Source of the DNA: a virus
Virus record (IMG/VR): IMGVR_UViG_3300031841_000964
Location: 1-25,545 of that record
Strand: one strand, 5' to 3'
Length of the DNA: 25,545 nt
Part shown: positions 2,826 to 17,852 of the stretch, in pieces
Layout of the letters: each line of letters begins with the position of its first letter
Numbering within the stretch: the stretch's first letter is position 1
Translations under genes and position numbers: made by a program
Notes under the pieces: generated by a model
Database searches by the model: none
What the model was told of the DNA's origin: nothing
What the model saw: only the letters and a program-made list of their open reading frames with translations

Positions 2826-3575
2826 TTAGTCGTCCCAATCTCCAACAATGGCACTCAGATCGTCGTCATCTTCCTTGGGTGCGGGGGCAGATTTCTTCAC
2901 GACCTTTTTCGGTTCCTCCACTTCGGAGGTGTCTGGCTCATCACCAAAGATGTCATCGGAGTCGTCATCGTCCAGATCAACGTCGGTGCTTTTGACACTA
3001 CTGGTAGTATCGTTAAACGGGTTATCGGGTTGCGCTACGAAGCCGCCTTCCACAACACCGAAGGGAGAGCGTGACACCATCGGCACGTATTCGATCACCT
3101 GTACGCCGTTCAGACGTAGGCTAACGCCATTGTCACGCATAGAGTACGGTACGAAAGTGAAAGCGATATTCACAGTGCTGCCACTGGTTAACTGAAAGTC
3201 CGCTGGCAGTTTGTTGTTCTGCGCGTCCACTTGCAGTGGTGGCGTGGTCTTGTCGGTGCCGTAAGCACCCTTCAACTTGGCCTTACCAACGTAGTTGCCG
3301 TCGTCATCTTTCTTGAACGGCAGTGCAAACTTGTCGGGCCAGCTCTTCTCTTTCTTGGCTTTGTAGGCCGCTGCCATCGCCTTGTACAAGGCTTTAGCTT
3401 CTGGCTCAGACATCACGAAAGACATCTCGTATGCCGCACCGTCATCCAGTGGGTCACACTTAACAGATCCGCCCTTACCACCGTTCGCTTTGTTATCGAA
3501 CTTGTAGGTGGCGTCGAGCTTCGGGTAGAGAGCTTTCACGCCCTCAATTGTGTAGTACATATTCGCTTCAGCCAT
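2826..3575 (-). CDS. single-stranded DNA-binding protein, acidic C-terminal tail
   Basis: This 249-aa protein is called as a phage ssDNA-binding protein that would coat single strands during replication and recruit partners. The N-terminal body (about residues 1-185) looks like a single compact domain with alternating hydrophobic segments (VNIAFTFVPYSM, VSLRLNGVQVIEYVPM), as in DUF2815/T7 gp2.5-type SSBs. From about 190 it becomes low-complexity and very acidic (DVDLDDDDSDDIFG) and ends DDDDLSAIVGDWDD. A flexible acidic tail of that kind is the hallmark of SSBs and binds replication partners. A strong ribosome binding site (AAGGAG) precedes the ATG. It overlaps the upstream Cys-rich gene by 8 nt and lies upstream of the primase-helicase, which fits the role. 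No OB-fold search could be run, so the exact family is uncertain. Confidence 0.75.
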   Translation of the reverse strand: MAEANMYYTIEGVKALYPKLDATYKFDNKANGGKGGSVKCDPLDDGAAYEMSFVMSEPEAKALYKAMAAAYKAKKEKSWPDKFALPFKKDDDGNYVGKAKLKGAYGTDKTTPPLQVDAQNNKLPADFQLTSGSTVNIAFTFVPYSMRDNGVSLRLNGVQVIEYVPMVSRSPFGVVEGGFVAQPDNPFNDTTSSVKSTDVDLDDDDSDDIFGDEPDTSEVEEPKKVVKKSAPAPKEDDDDLSAIVGDWDD

Positions 3576-4953: not shown

Positions 4954-4982
4954 AATATAGTGGTAGGTAATGGCTTAATCAA
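4954..4982 (-). promoter_or_regulatory. candidate sigma70 promoter for the 4924-2826 operon
   Basis: On the minus strand TTGATT (4982-4977) and TATATT (4959-4954) are separated by 17 nt. The -35 box overlaps the last codons of the helicase gene. Transcription would start near 4947, about 23 nt before the ATG at 4924, and would serve the Gp157-like, HTH, Cys-rich and SSB genes. Matches are 4/6 and 5/6, so it may be fortuitous. Confidence 0.4.
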
Positions 4983-6510
4983 GTATTTCTTTGTAAAGAT
5001 CAATAATTTTTGTATGTGTGTCTATTTTGTTATCTAGTAATGCGTACACGCGCTTTTCTATGTGAGATCCTTGTAGCTGTACCACTGTACACTTGTGATC
5101 TTGCCCCGCTCTGTGGATACGTGCGTTGGCCTGTGCGTAAGTTTCTACTGAGCTGGTTGGCCCCCACCACACGATTGTATTTGCAGCGGTCAGCGTGACA
5201 CCGTGTGCCGCAGCTTGCGGCTGGATGACCAGCACTCGGGGGGTATCCGTCTCTTGGAACTCTTTGAATATGCGCGTGCGTTCGGTGGCACTGACAGCCC
5301 CACTGATAATCTCGGTAGGTATCTTGTCCTTGCGTAACTTGTCAGCTAGTAACTGAATCGTGTGCTTGAACGGCACGAAGATCAGGACTTTCTTACTGGA
5401 CTCGTCAATCACCTCGCGTAGCACCTTGTATCGGTGCTTGATGTCGAACTCCACCACCTCGTTGTCGTCGGTGTACACCGCACCGGAACTGATCTGAAGT
5501 AGCTTGTTCATGTTGACCGCAGCCGTAGCTGCCGTGACTGTCTCTTCCGCAGCCTCCATGACCATGCGGTTCTTCAGCTCTTTGTAGTATTTTTCTTGCT
5601 GACGTGTCAGCGGTACCTCGCGGGTGGTGTACACCATGTCGGGCAGATCCAGACATTCTTCCTTTGTATACCGTATGGCTGGTTGCAGTGCGCCGAACAC
5701 TATCTCGGTAGCTTCGGGCTTAGGTACCCACTTGAAGTTGGTCACTTTGTACATGACCTGATCGCGGAACGAGCCGAAGAAGCGTGGCACAGCTCTCGGG
5801 TTAACAAGTTTAGCCAGACCGTACGCATCCAGCGGACTCTGTGCAGCGGGTGTACCCGTCATCATCCACAGCCATGTGTCAGGGCCAAGTAACTTGTTGA
5901 GTGTCTTCCACCTGTCAGTCTGAGCATTCTTGTAGTGCGTGGCTTCATCCACAATCACTAGGTCGAACCCACCGTTGGCTATGGCGTCCGCTACGATTGC
6001 CACACCGTCATAATTTATTATCACGAACTCTGCATCGCTTTCGATTACAGCGGTTCTCTTCTTCGCTGAACCGTGGGCTATATCTACCTTGCGGTGCATA
6101 GCGAAGCTAAATAGATCCTCGCGCCACGCCGAATCCATGATTGATAGGGGGCAAATGACCAGAGCACGTTTGATACGGCCCTGTTTCATCAGGAAGTCTG
6201 CTGCCCAGATAGCACTGGCGGTCTTGCCCGTACCCTGTTCGTTGAAACAGAACGCACGTTTGTTAAGTGTCAGGAACCCAGCCGTGGTCTTCTGGTGCTC
6301 GAACGGTTTGTGCTTGCCCGTCCATTTATACTTGCCTTCGATGGGTGACGGCGCGTTGATGTTTAGATTCTTGAGTACGTGAGCCTCGTCTACACCCCAG
6401 TTAACCACCACACGGTTACCTGATAACTCCTTACTCTTTGGTATTACACTTGTGACTTTCTGTGGGTCACGCAGCCTTAGCAGTAGTGCCTTGTTGTCGA
6501 TTACTTTCAT
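4975..6510 (-). CDS. SNF2/DEAD-box superfamily 2 helicase
   Basis: This 511-aa protein is a superfamily 2 ATPase of the SNF2 branch that should translocate on or remodel DNA. Visible motifs in order: FEHQKTTAGFL near residue 70 (Q-motif-like), Walker A NEQGTGKTA at 90-98, motif Ib region NYDGVAIVAD, Walker B IVDEATHYKN near 186-195, motif III MTGTPAAQ near 217-224, then a second RecA lobe with VLIFVPFKHTIQLL, GVTLTAANTIVWW and motif VI QANARIHRAGQ. I place the start at 6510, where GGAAGGG precedes ATG. An upstream in-frame ATG at 6549 has no ribosome binding site. Proteins like this occur in many phages with Cas4-like and VRR nucleases, and both are present in this arm. Replication-fork repair or recombination is the likely role; the substrate is unknown. 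Confidence 0.9.
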   Translation of the reverse strand: MKVIDNKALLLRLRDPQKVTSVIPKSKELSGNRVVVNWGVDEAHVLKNLNINAPSPIEGKYKWTGKHKPFEHQKTTAGFLTLNKRAFCFNEQGTGKTASAIWAADFLMKQGRIKRALVICPLSIMDSAWREDLFSFAMHRKVDIAHGSAKKRTAVIESDAEFVIINYDGVAIVADAIANGGFDLVIVDEATHYKNAQTDRWKTLNKLLGPDTWLWMMTGTPAAQSPLDAYGLAKLVNPRAVPRFFGSFRDQVMYKVTNFKWVPKPEATEIVFGALQPAIRYTKEECLDLPDMVYTTREVPLTRQQEKYYKELKNRMVMEAAEETVTAATAAVNMNKLLQISSGAVYTDDNEVVEFDIKHRYKVLREVIDESSKKVLIFVPFKHTIQLLADKLRKDKIPTEIISGAVSATERTRIFKEFQETDTPRVLVIQPQAAAHGVTLTAANTIVWWGPTSSVETYAQANARIHRAGQDHKCTVVQLQGSHIEKRVYALLDNKIDTHTKIIDLYKEILD

Positions 6511-6560
6511 ATACCCTTCCATGCAAAATAGCGCGAAGTGGGTGTCCACAACACGCGGTT

Positions 6561-6633: not shown

Positions 6634-6936
6634 TTACGATCTACGTCGAGGTCGATGAGTCGCTTTCTTTAGGGGCTTCTTGCCATTGCGACTTCTATTC
6701 TTGCTGGCGCTCTCTATACGAACGCCGTCTTTGTTACTACCGCCACGACTTAACATCTTGTTGTGGCTTACGTCCTTACCCTCTCGCTTGTCCGCTTTGC
6801 CGTTGTTGTTGGCATCACGGCTTGTCCTGTCCATAGCGCGTCTGGCACGTTGTCTCTCCATACGTGCTTCGTGTGCAGGGCTACCCACTGGTGGGTTTTT
6901 CTGTTTCTTACGATCCTTTGGATTCTTGTACGGCAT
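6634..6936 (-). CDS. small basic HNH-like phage protein
   Basis: A 100-aa protein very rich in Arg and Lys. The segment GKDVSHNKMLSRGGSNKDGVRIESASKNRSRNGKK (residues 53-87) has the layout of the small phage HNH-like proteins that read 'vDHk.pLskGG....NLrv.s...Nr'. Here the usual D-H is S-H and the first Asn is missing, so catalysis is doubtful and the protein may only bind nucleic acid. The N-terminal half is an unstructured basic segment with GSPAHEARMERQRARRAMDR. Its start overlaps the stop of the Cas4-like nuclease (TGATG), so the two are co-translated. Nicking, packaging accessory or structural roles are all open. Confidence 0.6.
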   Translation of the reverse strand: MPYKNPKDRKKQKNPPVGSPAHEARMERQRARRAMDRTSRDANNNGKADKREGKDVSHNKMLSRGGSNKDGVRIESASKNRSRNGKKPLKKATHRPRRRS

Positions 6937-7607
6937 CAGTTCTTTCCGTTATGTGGACACTCCAACACAGGGCACCATGCTTTACACAGTCCGCTGGGAT
7001 TGGGGTTCCAAGTGTCATGCTCAAAAGAAGTTTCCATGTCGCTGTATTTACTCAGCCACTTCGTCCATAGCTTTTCTTGGTCTTCAATCGAATACCGGTC
7101 TCGGATTAAGTCATTGCTTACTACGAACAATAACCCTGCGCGAACGGTCTCTATCTCAGGATAGTGCTTGAAGGTAGCCAGAGCCATAAGCTCTAGCTGT
7201 CCCTTGTCCGCATATCTTGCCGACTTGCCAGTCTTGTAGTCAATCACCCATGCGAGCTTGTCTTCGCGGTTTAAGATTACAAGGTCAGCAATGCCTCGGA
7301 ACCAAACGTTATCGTCAAAGAAGCTACATGCTTCTAAGTCTTCCGTTAGCCCCATCTTGATCTCGCATAGCTTCTCGCCTTTCTTAGCGTTCAGCGCGTC
7401 GAGCGTACCTTTAGCGTAGTTGAACCGTGGATCTAGCTCACCCCCGTCACGGATATAAGTCTCCGCAGCTTCGTGAAAAGCTGTTCCATACAGTGTCGCT
7501 TCAGACTCCTTGAACGGGTACTGCTTGAGTACCTTCTCATGGTAGAACTGTTTAGGGCACTGCTGGAACGCCTTTATCTTACTGAATGACCACGGCGCTA
7601 CGCTCAT
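6936..7607 (-). CDS. Cas4/RecB-like PD-(D/E)XK exonuclease with Fe-S cysteines
   Basis: A 223-aa nuclease of the PD-(D/E)XK superfamily, RecB/Cas4 branch. It has the typical order: SFSKIKAFQQCPKQFYHE (C17) at the N-terminus, YGTAFHEAAE with H45, RGIADLVI with D108, WVIDYKTGK with D123 and K125, then QLELMALA with Q137. Near the C-terminus CKAWCPVLEC supplies C208, C212 and C217. Together with C17 these would bind a 4Fe-4S cluster, as in Cas4 and AddB. Phage Cas4-like exonucleases usually process DNA ends for recombination or degradation. No cas1/cas2 or CRISPR array is nearby, so an adaptation role is not supported. It is ATGA-coupled to the small upstream gene and TGATG-coupled to the HNH-like gene. 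Confidence 0.88.
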   Translation of the reverse strand: MSVAPWSFSKIKAFQQCPKQFYHEKVLKQYPFKESEATLYGTAFHEAAETYIRDGGELDPRFNYAKGTLDALNAKKGEKLCEIKMGLTEDLEACSFFDDNVWFRGIADLVILNREDKLAWVIDYKTGKSARYADKGQLELMALATFKHYPEIETVRAGLLFVVSNDLIRDRYSIEDQEKLWTKWLSKYSDMETSFEHDTWNPNPSGLCKAWCPVLECPHNGKN

Positions 7608-7982: not shown

Positions 7983-8539
7983 TACACCACCTTCAAAACA
8001 GCATAGAACAACACTATAGCAGAAGTAGCGCCAAGTAGCGCACTCACATACTCCAATATAAACTTCAAGGGATTCTCTGGCTTCTCCATAACTGGCTGTT
8101 TTACAACTGGCTGTTTTACAACTGGCTGTTTCACAACTGGGTTAGGAGTCGCAGCCTTAGCCGCAGCCCTAGCTTCCCGCCGTTTTTGTTTAGCCAAATA
8201 CTTACGATGTGCAGCCTTGTTCCTCTCAAAAATCGTTCTGTACTCTTCAAGCGTTGCTATTCGGTAGTGATCCTTTTTCGTTTTTGTAATGTACCCTTTA
8301 CTGGTACCGCTTTGACTAAGCCACTTACGTAGCTCTTGCTTGTTTTTGGGTTTAGGTGCTAAGTCTGAGGCGGGAATTATCTTCCACATTCCTGTCAGCG
8401 TGGCGCTACCACCCAAACTCGACAGTATATCGTACAGATGCGCTGTCCTACTGTGCGGTTTTACTGGGTGAGGAGCGCGTTCCTCCGTAGTTTCTTCAGC
8501 CCAATCGTGCCCGTATATATTTTTTATTTTCGTATCCAT
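7982..8539 (-). CDS. tail-anchored protein with winged-helix-like N-terminus
   Basis: A 185-aa protein in three parts. Residues about 30-100 (HLYDILSSLGGSATLTGMWKII..., ELRKWLSQSGTSKGYITK..., DHYRIATLEEY) look like a winged-helix fold. Residues 100-135 form a very basic helix (RNKAAHRKYLAKQKRREARAAAKAA), followed by a VVKQP repeat linker encoded by 15-bp tandem repeats. The last 26 residues (FILEYVSALLGATSAIVLFYAVLKVV) form one transmembrane helix. The start at 8539 overlaps the DNA polymerase stop as TAATG, with GGAG upstream. The layout suggests a DNA-binding protein fixed to the inner membrane, perhaps tethering the replisome. Holins also have few TMs but lack the DNA-binding-like domain. 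Confidence 0.65.
   Translation of the reverse strand: MDTKIKNIYGHDWAEETTEERAPHPVKPHSRTAHLYDILSSLGGSATLTGMWKIIPASDLAPKPKNKQELRKWLSQSGTSKGYITKTKKDHYRIATLEEYRTIFERNKAAHRKYLAKQKRREARAAAKAATPNPVVKQPVVKQPVVKQPVMEKPENPLKFILEYVSALLGATSAIVLFYAVLKVV
8090..8140. repeat. 15-bp tandem repeat, 3.4 copies, coding
   Basis: The unit AACTGGCTGTTTTAC recurs at 8090, 8105 and 8120 (the third with one change), with a partial fourth from 8135. In the minus-strand gene it encodes the (VVKQP)n linker between the basic helix and the C-terminal membrane segment, so copy number would set linker length. Confidence 0.85.
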
Positions 8540-10371
8540 TATTCGCAATCTCCGTATGCGTTTGCTACGCCACTCTCACATTCAAGTGGCAACCCTTCGG
8601 CCCATGTCGGGACGTACCTCATGCACTTCTCAACATATTGTTGGGCCGTTTCTGCTTCAGACTCAGGTACACATGCGATAACTGAGTCGTGAACTGTAAG
8701 TACCGCTCGGTACTTGTTATTTATTAAGAGCATCTGGTCACCTATCACGCACCGTGCTAGGGCTTGGCAGACATTCTCTATGACTTTCCCACCGTAGATC
8801 CGTGTTCGGCCTCGGCGGGTCTTGTAGCTGTACTCAACCCCCCGCTCACCTTGCTCCCCACGTAGATCCTGATAACGCATTAGGAGCTTAGACGGTAGAC
8901 GTATGGCTTCTTGATTTCCTATAACCTTAATCGCACCTTCTCTGCCAAACTGTATGGAGTCACCCCGTTCCATGCCAGCGATTGCATGTTGGGCTTCTCG
9001 CCATACTTGGCTGATCCTCCAGTTTGCGTCACGATAGATATTGATGATGCGCCGTGCTTCGTCCAGCGATATGTCCGTACCAAACGATTTCAACTGTGCT
9101 TGAAACTTGAGCGCCCCCATACCATAACCGGCACCGAGGATTGTGGTCTTACCGACGAACCGCTGGTCTTTTGTTATCTGATCTTCCGGTGTTTCGTATA
9201 TACGTGCTGCCATCTTGACGTACACATCTTCTTTGTTGCGAAACGCATCAGTCAGGTCATCTTGCCCTGCAAACCACGCCAGCACCCGTGCTTCGATCTG
9301 CGATGAGTCACAGTCGATCAACGTGTACCCCCTCGGCGCTATGATGCTTCTCTTTAACATCTTACCGTTTGGCCCACGGCTAGGTAGGTTTTGTAGGTTG
9401 ATCTTGTCATCCCCACCCCACCTACCAGTGTGCGCTGCGTAGTACCTCACAGGAACCGGCAGAGTACCGCGCCCCGCTATGTCGATGAACCGCTGCGTGC
9501 GAGTCTCTTCCAGCGTACTTTTGTTACCTAGTCTGGCGGCTACCAGTGCTTGCACCGATGGGTTTTCATGCTCGGCAAGTGCCTTGAACCCTTCATCTGT
9601 TTTAGCAAATGCGAAGGTCTCTTTGCCTGTAGTGGGGCTGACCTTGGTAGGTGGTTCGACACCTTTAGAACGCAGTAACTCCGCAAACTTGTCGTTACTC
9701 ATTAGTTCTTTCTTGTCGGTCACACCGGCATCGGATAACAAGTTATCTTTATACTGCTTGATGTTCTCAAGGTGCTGCGCCAATAAGTCTTGGTCTAGCT
9801 CCAGCATCGGGTTAATGAACATACGTAAGGTGCAGTCGATGATCCTTAGTTCCTTCTTAGGGAAGCCTTGCTTCAAGAAAATGTTGAACAGGTCATACGT
9901 AAGCTGCACGTCGTTGATGCAGTAGTCGCCGTAACGATCTAACTCATCGTCAGTAAAATCCAAGCGGCGTTTATTTAGCGCGTTAAGTATCTCGGTACCT
10001 TTAGCACCTATATTGTATCTTTCCGCAAGCGCCTTGAGGCTTCCACCAACCTCCACCCCATGTACAGCACGGGCAATACAAAGAGTATCAGCGTAAACGC
10101 GAGGGCGAATACCAAATTTCCAAGATAATATAGCGCCATCGAACATAGTGTTGTGAGCCAGCAGCATACTGTTAGCCCAGTCAAACCCGCCAAGGTATTC
10201 TTTAAGTTCTTCGTGCGTTCCCGAAGCCCATTCAATGTCGCCATTATTTACCTTTACCCCTACGCCTACGATCTCAAAACGCGGATCGCGTACGTATTCT
10301 TCAGTCGTCATTTTTGTTAACGAGAAGTCCCTACTGTAGAACGTCTCGAAGTCCAAAGTTATAAGATCCAT
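8539..10371 (-). CDS. polA: family A DNA polymerase with 3'-5' exonuclease
   Basis: A 610-aa replicative polymerase in the phage Pol I family. Exonuclease motifs: DFE at residues 7-9, HNTMFD with D78, and YCIND with Y150 and D154, so proofreading should be active. Polymerase motif A is DCDSSQIEAR (D355, E360), motif B RFVGKTTILGAGYG (R404, K408, L412, Y416) and motif C VHDS (D562). The position equal to E. coli Phe762 is Leu (L412), and the residue after the motif A Asp is Ser rather than Tyr. No 5' nuclease domain is present, as is usual in phages. ATG follows the COQ4-like stop directly (TAAATG), with GGGAAG as ribosome binding site, so translation is coupled to that gene. Confidence 0.96.
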   Translation of the reverse strand: MDLITLDFETFYSRDFSLTKMTTEEYVRDPRFEIVGVGVKVNNGDIEWASGTHEELKEYLGGFDWANSMLLAHNTMFDGAILSWKFGIRPRVYADTLCIARAVHGVEVGGSLKALAERYNIGAKGTEILNALNKRRLDFTDDELDRYGDYCINDVQLTYDLFNIFLKQGFPKKELRIIDCTLRMFINPMLELDQDLLAQHLENIKQYKDNLLSDAGVTDKKELMSNDKFAELLRSKGVEPPTKVSPTTGKETFAFAKTDEGFKALAEHENPSVQALVAARLGNKSTLEETRTQRFIDIAGRGTLPVPVRYYAAHTGRWGGDDKINLQNLPSRGPNGKMLKRSIIAPRGYTLIDCDSSQIEARVLAWFAGQDDLTDAFRNKEDVYVKMAARIYETPEDQITKDQRFVGKTTILGAGYGMGALKFQAQLKSFGTDISLDEARRIINIYRDANWRISQVWREAQHAIAGMERGDSIQFGREGAIKVIGNQEAIRLPSKLLMRYQDLRGEQGERGVEYSYKTRRGRTRIYGGKVIENVCQALARCVIGDQMLLINNKYRAVLTVHDSVIACVPESEAETAQQYVEKCMRYVPTWAEGLPLECESGVANAYGDCE

Positions 10372-11085
10372 TTACTTCCCTTTTTGTTTGCGTAACCTAT
10401 CCATCATTGCCTTATATTTTGTGGGCTGACGTACACCGATACTTTGCTGCACAACCTCCAAAGGCTGACCTAACAAAGCAGGCCAATCTATACCGGCAAG
10501 CCACTGCGATTTCCTACCATGCCAGTACGCTTCAAAGGATGCGCTAAAAACACCCCATCCCTTTCTCCTAGCGTGGGTTATAGTCATGGGTATCGTCATA
10601 GCGATGATGCCTAGATTCGCAAAGTTACCGTGCAAGAACCAAAGAAGCACCACTTCACCAAAGGGGTTGCGTTCGTAACCGGTGACCGTGTGCGTAAGAT
10701 CATGCTGATCCCTATACCACTTAATGTAGGTGTTGAACTCTGACTCTGATGGCTTCTCGCCTTTGCCCTTGGTATCGCCTGCAAACTGCGCGGTGGAACG
10801 GCCTGTTTCTATTAAAAACTTTGAGTATTCGTTGCCAAGACTGCCAATAGGCATAGCCTGCAAGCGGTCTACGTCATCTAACACGTTAACCAGAGACTCT
10901 TTGTTCGATATTACCCTAGAGCCTAGATCCGTACTCCTAAACAGTTTGTGCTGCTTACGCACCGACTTGGTTGACAGCCAATTGAAAAGAACAAACGCTG
11001 CCGCCAAGTCATCTGGGTTCTTATAAAGACGGCGCAGTGCATTGAACACGCTACGCCATTTCAATTTGAATTTAGCTACACCCAT
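10372..11085 (-). CDS. coq4: COQ4-like ubiquinone biosynthesis family protein
   Basis: A 237-aa protein that matches the COQ4 family along its length. It contains the signature HDxxH(x11)E as HDLTHTVTGYERNPFGE, giving H128, D129, H132 and E144 as the metal site. Family-like blocks flank it: NPDDLAAAFVLFNWL near 23-37, DVDRLQAMPIGSLGNEYSKFL near 71-91, and FEAYWHGRKSQWLAGIDWPALLGQPLEVVQQSIGV near 184-218. COQ4 proteins act in coenzyme Q synthesis; recent work assigns them the oxidative decarboxylation at ring carbon 1 and they also organise the Q complex. The gene overlaps the radical SAM gene by 10 nt and abuts polA, so it is fully embedded in the phage operon and not a stray host fragment. 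Whether it works on quinones in the infected cell is unknown. Confidence 0.82.
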   Translation of the reverse strand: MGVAKFKLKWRSVFNALRRLYKNPDDLAAAFVLFNWLSTKSVRKQHKLFRSTDLGSRVISNKESLVNVLDDVDRLQAMPIGSLGNEYSKFLIETGRSTAQFAGDTKGKGEKPSESEFNTYIKWYRDQHDLTHTVTGYERNPFGEVVLLWFLHGNFANLGIIAMTIPMTITHARRKGWGVFSASFEAYWHGRKSQWLAGIDWPALLGQPLEVVQQSIGVRQPTKYKAMMDRLRKQKGK

Positions 11086-11900
11086 TGCTTATACCTCTCG
11101 ACTGTTTCAGGCTTTGCACACGGAACGTCGCACACGCTGCAAGGAGCTATGGCATCTCGGTTGCCATTGATAAGCTCGGTGTAGATGCGACGTAGCTCTT
11201 CGTTGTCGCGCCATTCCCTAAACATGTTTACGTCTTTGACGTTGGCGAAGCCGATTTGATGCGACCAGTCGTTACAGCACATCTGTAGCTCGCCATCAAA
11301 GTTTATAAAGATCCCCCGCATTGGGTGGACGCACGGGCCTTTTACAGCAGTGCCGCCAGCAATTAGCCCCGCTCGGTGATTAAAGACATGCGCGTACAGA
11401 AAGTTACCGCCCTTGGGATCTGGAAAATCAGGTAGTACGTTTATGTCTTCAACTGATCCGCCGTCAGGTTTCCAGTAATCTTCGATCCGCTCGCCGTTAT
11501 CTAAGCGCGGGTACTTTGCTCGCCTCGCTAGGAAGTCCTCTTCTGTCGTATAGGTATTCAGTACAAGGTTGTCTAGCTGCCGGTAGTATTTCCAATACCG
11601 ATCAAGCCTCCAGCCATTAGTTGTTACCTGTGTCTTATACCGATTCGGTTTGCGAAGAAGGCGTTTAATTATGTCTTCAAACTGCGGGTGGTTAGTGCTC
11701 TCACCTCGCCCAGCAAGGATCACGGTGCCACTGAACCTCCACTCCTCTATCTGATCCATGATCTGATCAAACAATTCCAGACTCATGTTCTGGTTGTTAT
11801 TGGGGTATATAGACGCATCAGACCGTGGGCAGAACGAACAAGTGCGATTGCATAAGTCCGTTATGTTTATGTCGATCTGACCAAGCCCCCTCAAGTCCAC
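11076..11900 (-). CDS. radical SAM / SPASM-type enzyme
   Basis: A 274-aa radical SAM protein. The cluster motif is CNRTCSFC (CxxxCxxC, residues 17-24 from this start), followed by ILAGRGESTNHPQFEDII, which fits the SAM-binding GGE region, and TQVTTNGWRL. The C-terminus has a SPASM-like second set of cysteines: GPCVHPMRGIFINFDGELQMCC and APCSVCDVPC. SPASM enzymes often modify peptides or bind auxiliary clusters, but the substrate cannot be read from the sequence. I use GTG at 11900, with AGGA nine bases upstream; an in-frame TTG at 11927 would add nine residues. It overlaps the upstream small gene and, by 10 nt, the COQ4-like gene, so the two enzymes are translationally coupled. Confidence 0.88.
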   Translation of the reverse strand: MDLRGLGQIDINITDLCNRTCSFCPRSDASIYPNNNQNMSLELFDQIMDQIEEWRFSGTVILAGRGESTNHPQFEDIIKRLLRKPNRYKTQVTTNGWRLDRYWKYYRQLDNLVLNTYTTEEDFLARRAKYPRLDNGERIEDYWKPDGGSVEDINVLPDFPDPKGGNFLYAHVFNHRAGLIAGGTAVKGPCVHPMRGIFINFDGELQMCCNDWSHQIGFANVKDVNMFREWRDNEELRRIYTELINGNRDAIAPCSVCDVPCAKPETVERYKQWV

Positions 11901-14337: not shown

Positions 14338-15441
14338 TTACTCTCCTTTCGTTGTTGTAACTAAACCGCAGGCACGGTTGGCCCATCGGTTGAAGTGTGC
14401 GCGTACCCTCTTGGCATCTTCTGAGGTGGTAGCGTGTCTCATACCAGACTTAATCATGTAGGTAGTAAGTAGTGGTAAACGTAACTCATGGTCACTTGTA
14501 GTTATTATCTCTTGTACCTTGTCCCCATCAAACGTCTGCTGGTCTACCCAATAAAAGCCTTTCAGTACATTGTGCTCTCGCAACGTGTCCTTGGCGCTAC
14601 GCACATACTGCCAGTCATCAATGGGTAACATCTTTCCTACAGAACACGCCCACTGCCAGAACTCATCAAGGTGTGGTTTTAGTTGTTTCTTACGTTCCTT
14701 GTCCACACGCGACTTGGGGTTGACCGGCTTGAACTCAGGACTGATGAGTTTCCAAGTATCCATGTTGGTCGGAAACACGCCGGTCTTTTCCATAAGCTCT
14801 GGATCTGGCACGTATGCGTTCCTAGCGAATGTCAGATACTTGCAGTCATCCTCGCGTTGGTATTGTGCAGTCCAGTAATCCCGCGAACTTTGAGTGACGG
14901 GACTGCTGTTTACCCAATGATCCCACTGCCTTGCATCGACTGACCGACTCTTGGGCAGATAATACTTTCGGTGGGGCGGTGGGTTTTGTTGGTGTATCAC
15001 CTTGATGTGCTGCCTACCATCGGTACCGCCAACATACATCAGACCTTTAGGTAAGAACTCAGCTAGAAACTGATACCGACTTGTGTGTGCATGGCCGCCT
15101 GACCCATTGCGTACCTTGACCGTCTCTAGGTATGAGCCATCGGGTTGCGGTTGAATCTCCCACACAATAGGTGACAGGTTATATGTATCCTCCGCAGATA
15201 CAGGCACCGAATTGGGTCGGTAGTAGCCGCGATTAAACACTGGGTCGCCGTAATTACCGTCGCACAAGGCGTAGCAGGTAGGTGATAACTTAACAATGTG
15301 TTCCCACTTACGATCCCGTCTGTCGGCAGGACGTAGATCGTCCTCCTTCTTGTGATACTTACTGACCAACGGTTTGGTCTGGTTGTATTTGCGCTCGATA
15401 TGCCAGAACGAGTCCAGCCCTTTCTTATATGCGTATGCCAT
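14338..15441 (-). CDS. unknown phage protein in the MoxR-VWA operon
   Basis: A 367-aa protein rich in Trp, Tyr, His and basic residues. It starts MAYAYKKGLDSFWHIERKY... at an ATG overlapping the VWA stop as TAATG. The N-terminal half (RKWEHIVKLSPTCYALCDG, PIVWEIQPQPDGSYLETVKVRNG, SRYQFLAEFLPKGLMYVG) appears beta-rich and resembles part of the next gene's product (VYYPHEKYARGIIGVRP) only loosely. The C-terminal half is helical with basic clusters (SRVDKERKKQLKPHLDEFWQWA). No catalytic motif recognised. It is likely a partner of the AAA+/VWA pair because translation is coupled to it. Confidence 0.6.
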   Translation of the reverse strand: MAYAYKKGLDSFWHIERKYNQTKPLVSKYHKKEDDLRPADRRDRKWEHIVKLSPTCYALCDGNYGDPVFNRGYYRPNSVPVSAEDTYNLSPIVWEIQPQPDGSYLETVKVRNGSGGHAHTSRYQFLAEFLPKGLMYVGGTDGRQHIKVIHQQNPPPHRKYYLPKSRSVDARQWDHWVNSSPVTQSSRDYWTAQYQREDDCKYLTFARNAYVPDPELMEKTGVFPTNMDTWKLISPEFKPVNPKSRVDKERKKQLKPHLDEFWQWACSVGKMLPIDDWQYVRSAKDTLREHNVLKGFYWVDQQTFDGDKVQEIITTSDHELRLPLLTTYMIKSGMRHATTSEDAKRVRAHFNRWANRACGLVTTTKGE

Positions 15442-16685
15442 TAGTGAATCTCCGCTGAATCAATATGCACGACCTTGCCGTTGTCGGGAGTCGCATGTTT
15501 GTTGTCGATCACACACCACAGGGTTGGGCAGTCCCATGTACCCCAGCCACCGAACAGGTAACCGTCAGTGAGGATGATCGTTGCTTGTGGCTTGATCTGG
15601 TGATCTTGCATGTACTCGACCACGCACTCGACATCGGTGCCGCCACCGCCTTGGGGTTTGGTAGATTGAGCCAGCGTGTGTACCTCATGGGACTCGTATG
15701 ACTCGTCACCCACAACCTCATGGCCCCAGTACAGTAGGCGAACCTTGTCGGGCTTGACCGTAGTGCAGATCGACTGAACTTCTGACAAGAACACAGCCAG
15801 ATCAGCGTCGGGTATAGACCCTGACGTATCAACAGCAATCACAAGCTCATCGACTTTCTCGCTGATACCGTTGGGCAGATAGACACCGGCACCAATGTAT
15901 CGGCGGTTGGGACGTTTCCATGTGGAGTAGTCGTTGCCAGTACAGGTTGTCTGGATGAACTCGCGCAGTACCTCACGCCAATCGACCTGCGGTTGCATAA
16001 GCTCGGCAAGTAGACGGTTGCCCGTAGCGCCTGACTTACTAGCCATCATGCTGCCCTGACGTATCGCTACGTCGATCTCTTTCTCAAGATCTTTGACCTC
16101 ATCGTCTGACAGCTTATCTGCACCCTCCCAGTCGTGGTCATCGAAGCCTTGGGCGGAAGAAGTACCTTGTGGGTCATCTCCACCTTCATCGTCGCCGCCG
16201 TCATCGTCATCATCCAATGCCTTGAAGATCACAGCAGTATCCGACCATGACCCGTCGGGCTTGCGGAACCGTTCGTCATACAGCCCGATCTGATTGCCGA
16301 CCTCATCGCGTGGCATAGCGGCGAAGTCATCCTCTCGGTTTTCATCGACCAGCTTGCCGTTGATGTTGTAGTCGCATGACATGTTGGCGAGTCGGTGGTT
16401 CTTGTCGTGCAAGTGCTTCCACGTTATCAGGTGCCGGTACATCTTGTGATAGCACTCATGCAGTATCACGAAGCGAAGCTCGGCATCGGTCATGGAATCA
16501 ACGAATGCTCGACCATAAGTCTCGTCACGTCCGTTGGTACATGCAGTCGGTACGTCATCGCTGACAGTCTTGTTGCCCACCATGAGTACACCAGCCAAGG
16601 CCATGTACCGTGGGTGAGCAGTAATATCTACCACTGCTTTGGTGATCCGCTGCTCGGCGGTCAGTTGTTGGTTTAGTGCTAACAT
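15441..16685 (-). CDS. DUF2201/CobT-like metallopeptidase-VWA protein
   Basis: A 414-aa two-domain protein. The N-terminal domain has a zinc-peptidase motif HECYH (H76, E77, H80) followed by NMSCDYNING, where D105 may be a third ligand; this is the DUF2201 putative metallopeptidase layout. A linker at about 158-190 is strongly acidic (DDDDDGGDDEGGDD). The C-terminal VWA-like domain has a MIDAS set: DTSGS (286-290), GGGGTD with T350, and LTDG with D374. Proteins of this type work with a MoxR ATPase, which inserts metals or remodels targets; CobS/CobT of cobalt chelation is the best known pair. AGGAGGTAAC precedes the ATG. The MoxR gene ends nine bases upstream. Whether the peptidase site is active is unknown. 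Confidence 0.85.
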   Translation of the reverse strand: MLALNQQLTAEQRITKAVVDITAHPRYMALAGVLMVGNKTVSDDVPTACTNGRDETYGRAFVDSMTDAELRFVILHECYHKMYRHLITWKHLHDKNHRLANMSCDYNINGKLVDENREDDFAAMPRDEVGNQIGLYDERFRKPDGSWSDTAVIFKALDDDDDGGDDEGGDDPQGTSSAQGFDDHDWEGADKLSDDEVKDLEKEIDVAIRQGSMMASKSGATGNRLLAELMQPQVDWREVLREFIQTTCTGNDYSTWKRPNRRYIGAGVYLPNGISEKVDELVIAVDTSGSIPDADLAVFLSEVQSICTTVKPDKVRLLYWGHEVVGDESYESHEVHTLAQSTKPQGGGGTDVECVVEYMQDHQIKPQATIILTDGYLFGGWGTWDCPTLWCVIDNKHATPDNGKVVHIDSAEIH

Positions 16686-16694
16686 GTTACCTCC

Positions 16695-17798
16695 TTACAC
16701 CTTGTCCGCTGCGAACATGTAGTTGTTGTCCATAGCCCATTGAGTAAACAGCTTGTTCTGCATAATCATGGACTGCTTGGCCTTGTTGTATTTGCTGGAT
16801 CGAACGCCGTTGGCGAACAGACCTTGGGCTTCCTTGTCCAGCCGGTTCACATATGTCATCCACGCATCGGCCCAATCACGCTCCAATGCGGACAGTGCTT
16901 TGAACACCACCATGCAGGTAGCAGCTTGGGACGTTGGCACCGTGGCATTGTCAGGATCGTTCTTGATTGACTCCAATGACGGTAGCTGGTCAGCCAGCTT
17001 GAGGAATGACATGAAGTCTGCGGCGGCTCGGACACCGATGGTACCAATGAGTGCTGCCTGTAACGTGTCATCATCTAGCCCATCACGGCGTTTCAAGATG
17101 TCACTCGCTGCATGTAGTGAACGTGGCGTACAGAACGCAGCCCGATCCACAGCTTTGGGATGGAAGATGTACTGGTTGTCATCTGGATTCGGTACATCAC
17201 GGAAGTCTTGCATGACCTCGGGAGTCTCTTTGGCCCAGCCCAGTATTGTGTGATCTACACCGTTGCTGATGCCCCACTCGACCCATTCCATAGCGGTGGG
17301 CTTCTTAGTCTCGACCACGGTTATGCGGTTACGGGCATGTGCGGGTAACAGATCACCCACACCCTCGCTGCCAAGGTTAGTCGTGGCGAATATGATGGAG
17401 TCGGGGTGCAGTGTGTAGCTGCCGATCTTACGTTCGAGGATCAGACGTAACAGGGCATTCTTGACTGCGGGGTTGGCCTTACCGAACTCGTCAATCATCA
17501 GGATGATCGGCTTGTCGTGGTGGGCACCCAATTCCTCGTTGGTCAGGTACGTCACATAGCCAGTGCCGTCATCCAGCTTGGCGATGTTGGGTATCGTGAT
17601 GTCACCCAAGTCCTTGGTCGTGCAGTCGAGAAAACATGCTATGTAATCCGGCAGTGCCTCTGAGATTTCGGTAAGCAGTGATGACTTACCTGTACCCATG
17701 TGGCCTTGAAGTAAGACTGTGCGAAGCCGACCGATTGCCAAGATCAGTGCCTTGGCTTGTTCGAGAGTCAGTGCGTAAGTTTGTTGTGCATAGCTCAT
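16695..17798 (-). CDS. MoxR/CobS-type AAA+ ATPase
   Basis: A 367-aa AAA+ ATPase. Walker A is GHMGTGKSS (32-40), Walker B IILMIDEFGKANP (98-110), sensor 1 FATTNLGSEG (137-146), with R157 (ARNRIT) placed for an arginine finger. The short N-terminus and 'LTLEQAKALILAIGRLRTVLLQG' start fit MoxR/CobS ATPases, which act as oligomers that remodel a VWA partner and its client. The C-terminal 150 residues are helical and less typical. I start at 17798, with AAGGAGAT before ATG; an in-frame ATG at 17849 lies in the hairpin leader and has no ribosome binding site. The gene follows a sigma70-like promoter (17894-17922) and one copy of the polar hairpin, and leads the five-gene operon to 13174. Confidence 0.87.
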   Translation of the reverse strand: MSYAQQTYALTLEQAKALILAIGRLRTVLLQGHMGTGKSSLLTEISEALPDYIACFLDCTTKDLGDITIPNIAKLDDGTGYVTYLTNEELGAHHDKPIILMIDEFGKANPAVKNALLRLILERKIGSYTLHPDSIIFATTNLGSEGVGDLLPAHARNRITVVETKKPTAMEWVEWGISNGVDHTILGWAKETPEVMQDFRDVPNPDDNQYIFHPKAVDRAAFCTPRSLHAASDILKRRDGLDDDTLQAALIGTIGVRAAADFMSFLKLADQLPSLESIKNDPDNATVPTSQAATCMVVFKALSALERDWADAWMTYVNRLDKEAQGLFANGVRSSKYNKAKQSMIMQNKLFTQWAMDNNYMFAADKV

Positions 17799-17829
17799 GG
17801 CTATCTCCTTTCCGTTTTGTTGTTTTGGT

Positions 17830-17852
17830 TTTGTGTATAAGTCATACACAAA
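17830..17852 (-). repeat. polar hairpin element, copy 1
   Basis: Perfect 9-bp inverted arms TTTGTGTAT and ATACACAAA flank a 5-nt centre that reads AAGTC on the plus strand and GACTT on the minus strand. It lies between the promoter at 17.9 kb and the MoxR start, so it is transcribed, and is followed by an A/C-rich leader before the ribosome binding site. Confidence 0.9.

Follow-up and report, generated by a model that had tools for sequence, protein, structure and literature searches.

The enzymatic role of COQ4 in coenzyme Q synthesis has been assigned only recently, and its chemistry is still debated. The protein has long been described as an organizer of the CoQ synthome; a homologue was crystallized with oleic acid (PMC9774615). 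In vitro, an ancestral animal COQ4 acted as a C1 decarboxylase in a Zn-dependent manner (PMC7615680), and oxidative C1 decarboxylation is the role cited for COQ4 in a review (PMC11050807). Here we analyzed a COQ4-family gene found in a phage sequence of 25,545 nucleotides (IMG/VR record IMGVR_UViG_3300031841_000964), the whole of which is referred to below as the window. The phage protein shares the profile, the fold and the HDxxH(x11)E motif with COQ4 of eukaryotes and bacteria (PF05019). It differs from cellular COQ4 in being only about 25-36% identical at best, in carrying W for R(-5), N for Q154 and K/Q for R213, and in being encoded behind a radical-SAM gene. The best fold match is Alr8543 of Nostoc (PDB 6e12; E 2.5e-8, TM 0.71/0.79), which has the metal motif in common with the phage protein at about 20% identity; it is a cellular protein of unknown function that was crystallized with Mg and oleic acid. 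The closest COQ4-like matches in the plasmid collection, at 28% identity, are encoded on the sphingomonad plasmids NZ_CP009123 and NZ_CP033228, where they are paralogues outside a ubiquinone operon, like the phage gene, but stand in an acyl-CoA/P450 catabolic operon without a radical-SAM gene, unlike in the phage. For the partner protein, the closest solved relative is BtrN, a twitch radical-SAM dehydrogenase (4m7s, 4m7t), which shares the CxxxCxxC motif, although the alignment covers part of the sequence only and no equivalog cut-off was reached. Pelagiphages of the HTVC023P type (PMC9599517), whose podovirus genomes are similar in size, encode a related terminase (46%); they too have 2OG-oxygenase genes as partners, and sets of genes have been transferred across families. 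The main text on these phages mentions neither ubiquinone nor radical-SAM genes.

The COQ4-family gene and its phage operon

The features of the window that are relevant to this analysis are as follows.

10372..11085, minus strand: COQ4-family gene (237 aa, ATG start, TAA stop; from translation, Pfam Coq4 at 5.3e-14, and model and fold match)
10654..10704, minus strand: HDxxH(x11)E metal motif, codons H128 to E144 (ligands H128, D129, H132, E144)
10717..10719, minus strand: codon W123 (arginine in 97% of 102 cellular rows, W in 11/11 phage rows)
11076..11927, minus strand: radical SAM/SPASM (twitch-like) enzyme gene (PF04055 7.8e-13, PF13186 6.4e-5; CxxxCxxC motif CNRTCSFC)
8539..10371, minus strand: DNA polymerase gene, A-type (PolA), directly downstream of COQ4
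6936..7607, minus strand: PD-(D/E)XK nuclease gene, same operon as COQ4 (PF12705 1.5e-17)
4975..6549, minus strand: helicase gene, same operon as COQ4 (phrog_62 4.3e-112)
2826..3575, minus strand: single-stranded DNA-binding-like gene, same operon as COQ4 (PF21265 4.8e-5 and PF10991 7.8e-5, both under the curated cut-off)

The preliminary description of this DNA had proposed an open reading frame for a COQ4-like protein at 10372-11085. The frame is present and reads on the minus strand, the plus-strand frame at these positions being full of stops, and the translation contains the H128/D129/H132/E144 motif and the quoted COQ4 blocks exactly as described. The match to PF05019 (E 5.3e-14, 52.5 bits against a curated cut-off of 22.9) is too strong to be due to chance. 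When a profile of 90 relatives was compared with the PDB, the only convincing matches were 6e12 (3.6e-31) and 3msq (4.5e-28). The AlphaFold model had a pLDDT of 85.9 and a pTM of 0.83 with a 70-row alignment that leaves out three plasmid-record proteins; this alignment was used instead of one of eight close phage rows alone, which gave a pLDDT of 43. In a Foldseek search with this model, the same two COQ4 homologues, 6e12 and 3msq, were the sole PDB matches under E 0.001, so that the suggested comparison with COQ4 structures also agrees with the assignment. All four ligands are invariant in 11 of the 11 phage rows of the alignment, and among 102 cellular rows H128, H132 and E144 are kept at 100% and D129 at 99%. 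By every family test available, the phage protein genuinely belongs to the COQ4 metalloproteins. Sequence and overall fold together suggest the geometry of its metal site, and the protein is predicted to bind a divalent metal.

The gene is a genuine phage gene, as the preliminary description had maintained. That description had it overlapping both neighbors: its start does share 10 nt (ATGGGTGTAG) with the end of the radical-SAM gene upstream, and a GAGAGG site precedes this overlap, but the DNA polymerase gene is only abutted (TAA|ATG), without overlap. The replication operon is as stated, with PolA, helicase, PD-(D/E)XK nuclease and SSB-like genes downstream on the same strand. COQ4 of the same clade was found in 21 other IMG/VR contigs (69-100% identity), one of which, L001, is near-identical to the window (12 differences in 10.5 kb). 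The 10 COQ4 genes compared were all intact, and median dN/dS values were 0.10 for COQ4 (from the 17 of 45 pairs that were not saturated), 0.06 for radical SAM and 0.21 for 2OG; COQ4 is under purifying selection in these phages. The terminase of the window phage has its relatives, at 46-48%, in pelagiphage HTVC027P and a gammaproteobacterial phage. We found no COQ4 among 50,697 annotated phage records and no COQ4 fold in the viral structure library, so that the group is absent from sequenced-phage collections; the open-access full texts contained no relevant paper on a phage role of COQ4, in line with the earlier remark that no such role is established. Elsewhere in the window, a large protein encoded at 15441-17849 on the minus strand matches phrog_1314 (annotated HNH endonuclease) and lies beside an ATPase (phrog_1297); by eye, this pair of the early operon resembles a VWA-type and MoxR-type AAA pair.

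The radical-SAM partner, the 2OG oxygenase and the placement of the cassette

The earlier account left out the partner genes. A radical-SAM/SPASM gene stands immediately upstream of COQ4 in all 20 contigs able to show this (one further contig begins inside COQ4 and is uninformative), and all 19 radical-SAM matches have COQ4 directly downstream; the pairing is obligate in these phages. The C-terminal SPASM/twitch cysteines of the partner protein are present, and C199, C217, C218, C263, C266 and C270 are invariant. Its translation may actually begin at the GTG at 11900, in agreement with the start in the relatives. The best PDB match is BtrN (4m7s, 4m7t; E 1.4e-5), though no whole-length match to the BtrN equivalog was found, only N-terminal profile matches that reach no NCBIfam cut-off, along with weak sub-cutoff matches to several peptide maturases.

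In most contigs COQ4 is followed by a third gene, which encodes a 2OG-Fe(II) oxygenase of about 168 aa; its residues H80, D82, H136 and R146 (HxD...H...R) are invariant, and its Pfam match (PF13640) falls just below the cut-off. Within viral contigs, members of this gene family occurred nowhere but immediately behind COQ4 (17/17, three of these contigs beginning inside COQ4). The relatives L002 and L003 carry it between COQ4 and DNA polymerase; it is absent from the window, from L001 and from the group L008-L013, where an endolysin gene directly follows COQ4. As the contigs are fragments, a gene missing from a contig is weak evidence of absence.

The cassette occurs in different genome modules of two phage types. 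In the window type (L001-L003) it adjoins PolA and belongs to the replication operon; the other type (e.g., L005, L018, L019, L021) has it in the lysis module, flanked by a small lipoprotein-like gene and a phage lysozyme gene. When G002 (56.8 kb) was compared with G008 (50.2 kb), the shared structural module had diverged to 30-60% identity for the most part, whereas radical SAM (86%) and COQ4 (72%) were above most other shared genes. None of the 80 cellular COQ4 loci or the three plasmid loci carried the radical-SAM and 2OG genes; thus a cellular counterpart of the cassette was not found among them. Two adjacent genes of the tail region (G002:52929-53650 and G008:42160-42881) are 94% and 98% identical although the two phages have otherwise diverged, which points to recent exchange. 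A JmjC_2 (PF08007) oxygenase gene, with distant relatives in cyanophages, is 85% identical between the two phage types (L034:15702-16481, minus strand, and L037:6608-7318, plus strand); it is not adjacent to the cassette and may be part of the same functional set.

Divergence from cellular COQ4 and the host context

The main phage clade forms one group with support of 100/100 and a stem of 2.4-2.7 changes per site, which falls inside a gammaproteobacterial group in one tree and is unresolved in another. The best cellular matches come from marine Gammaproteobacteria (34-36% identity). A genome scan with phage-only patterns returned no cellular COQ4 relatives; a mixed phage-plus-plasmid alignment used as query returned 80. 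The best reading is that COQ4 was acquired long ago from a bacterium, the nearest sampled relatives being marine Gammaproteobacteria. Several changes are fixed in all phage rows at positions that are 79-98% conserved in cells (R123W, Q154N, R213K/Q, D140N, G138E); residue 213, for instance, is K or Q in the phage rows and R in 98% of the cellular rows. Counted without gaps, position 123 precedes the HD pair by five residues and corresponds to R158 of human COQ4, whose metal motif starts at H163 (PMC9774615). The variant p.Arg158Gln is a listed COQ4 disease variant, R158 being mutated in CoQ10 deficiency (PMC11050807). The replaced near-universal residues and the long stem argue against an unchanged ubiquinone reaction, though they do not disprove it. 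No ubiquinone genes share an operon with phage COQ4, its neighbors being radical SAM, 2OG oxygenase, DNA polymerase or lysis genes.

A second phage COQ4 was found in a 46-kb record (IMGVR_UViG_3300012952_003062, G032) that is T4-like by its replication and nrd-type genes, as read by eye from the translations. This COQ4 is 83% identical to that of marine gammaproteobacterial MAGs. It follows a holin (PF11351) and a lysozyme (PF00959) gene and precedes a 2OG-oxygenase gene and one similar-looking gene; no radical-SAM relative was found in this record. In the tree it falls inside marine gammaproteobacteria, apart from the main phage clade. This split may reflect two separate acquisitions by phages, but a constraint joining all phage sequences was not rejected (p-AU 0.53).

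Among the nearest genomes, 17 bear COQ4 (16 gammaproteobacterial and one Kordiimonas); UbiA was over the cut-off in 14 of the 17, and UbiD was present in one, the Kordiimonas, which is indicative that the host COQ4 may perform the C1 decarboxylation there. In the wider host family (61 genomes, many of them incomplete), COQ4 occurred in 30, UbiD in 3, both in none and neither in 28, and class-wide COQ4 occurred in 3 of 140 genomes, one of the three also having UbiD. A clean replacement of UbiD by host COQ4 was therefore set aside, the pattern being suggestive in the 17 genomes but not clean across the family or the class.

Cellular COQ4 genes also occur in other settings. In four marine gammaproteobacterial MAGs (L045, L047, L051, L053), COQ4 is oriented divergently next to a conserved small DUF1993-like gene and a peptide-transporter-like gene, as judged by eye, and not beside ubiquinone genes. 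Myxococcota genomes and bacterium TMED88 (G028-G031) have two to nine COQ4 matches each, which points to many family members outside a single ubiquinone role. On the sphingomonad plasmids L030 and L031, a COQ4-like gene lies within an acyl-CoA dehydrogenase/P450 catabolic operon and is likely another COQ4 with a role other than ubiquinone synthesis.

Candidate functions of the cassette

We lean, with modest confidence, towards phage COQ4 being a metal-dependent COQ4-type enzyme in a two- or three-enzyme cassette with the radical-SAM enzyme, acting on a substrate other than the standard ubiquinone precursor. Conceivably, the reaction, the substrate and the benefit to the phage would be as follows. 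A COQ4-type reaction would remove or oxidatively replace the ring carboxylate of a carboxylated aromatic or lipid, which would differ from the standard ubiquinone precursor; the BtrN-related radical-SAM enzyme would oxidize the substrate before or after the COQ4-like step; the optional 2OG enzyme would hydroxylate it; and what results would take effect in the infected host, with the membrane or respiration as the probable place of action. Against this reading, a changed conserved residue is not proof of a changed substrate, and the long stem of the phage clade could also have arisen through fast phage evolution, the function being unchanged. The operon position in the window phage is one of replication, not metabolism, and because the 2OG gene is missing there, a three-step pathway is not general.

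The gene may instead be an auxiliary metabolic gene for the usual COQ4 step in ubiquinone synthesis, the metal-dependent C1 (oxidative) decarboxylation of the 4-hydroxybenzoate precursor, and so sustain host respiration during infection, a role that the preliminary description had put forward. We regard it as unlikely: the constant partner is a radical-SAM enzyme and no known ubiquinone enzyme, R123W and the other fixed changes affect near-universal positions, and the clade has a long stem, while the UbiD/COQ4 pattern of the hosts is mixed, with neither gene in 28 of the 61 genomes of one host family, even though the retained family, fold and metal site would suit such a role, as would the nearest COQ4-bearing hosts (UbiA 14/17, UbiD 1/17), in which COQ4 may be the C1 decarboxylase, the near-host COQ4 of the T4-like phage, and the in vitro Zn-dependent C1 decarboxylation by the ancestral animal enzyme (PMC7615680). 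Comparisons of sequence do not support, nor do they disprove, that the phage protein plainly boosts ubiquinone, and a divergent clade with near-invariant residues replaced and a constant radical-SAM partner lends no support as such to the sustaining of respiration.

Improbable to a greater degree is a non-catalytic, metal-stabilized lipid-binding or assembly protein that would tether either the radical-SAM enzyme or the machinery of replication to the membrane. A complex would fit the translational coupling to the radical-SAM gene, and COQ4 has been seen as an organizer of the CoQ synthome, with a homologue crystal containing oleic acid (PMC9774615). However, the four metal ligands are invariant despite about 70% divergence elsewhere, so that the recruited scaffold suggested earlier is disfavored, and the cassette also occurs in the lysis module, away from the replication genes that such a scaffold would serve. 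Peptides are frequent substrates of SPASM radical-SAM enzymes, and the partner protein has weak sub-cutoff matches to peptide maturases, but modification of a peptide or protein (RiPP-like or post-translational) by radical SAM and COQ4, with the COQ4 fold as an accessory enzyme, is very improbable, as no conserved short ORF for a precursor accompanies the cassette in both phage types and the best named relatives of the radical-SAM protein are BtrN-like or twitch enzymes, not RiPP maturases.

Returning to the enzyme cassette, we propose tentatively, and with some doubt, that radical SAM, COQ4-like and 2OG enzymes may constitute a new mobile phage pathway that, in marine bacteria under infection, would produce or modify a quinone-like or lipid metabolite and thereby redirect respiration or time lysis. 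If this is true, phage COQ4 would be the first family member shown to work outside ubiquinone synthesis. With its metal site kept, its conserved residues changed and its radical-SAM partner constant, it is a natural variant that probes the catalysis of the COQ4 fold. In essence, the cassette would add quinone- or lipid-type chemistry to the possible effects of phages on host metabolism.
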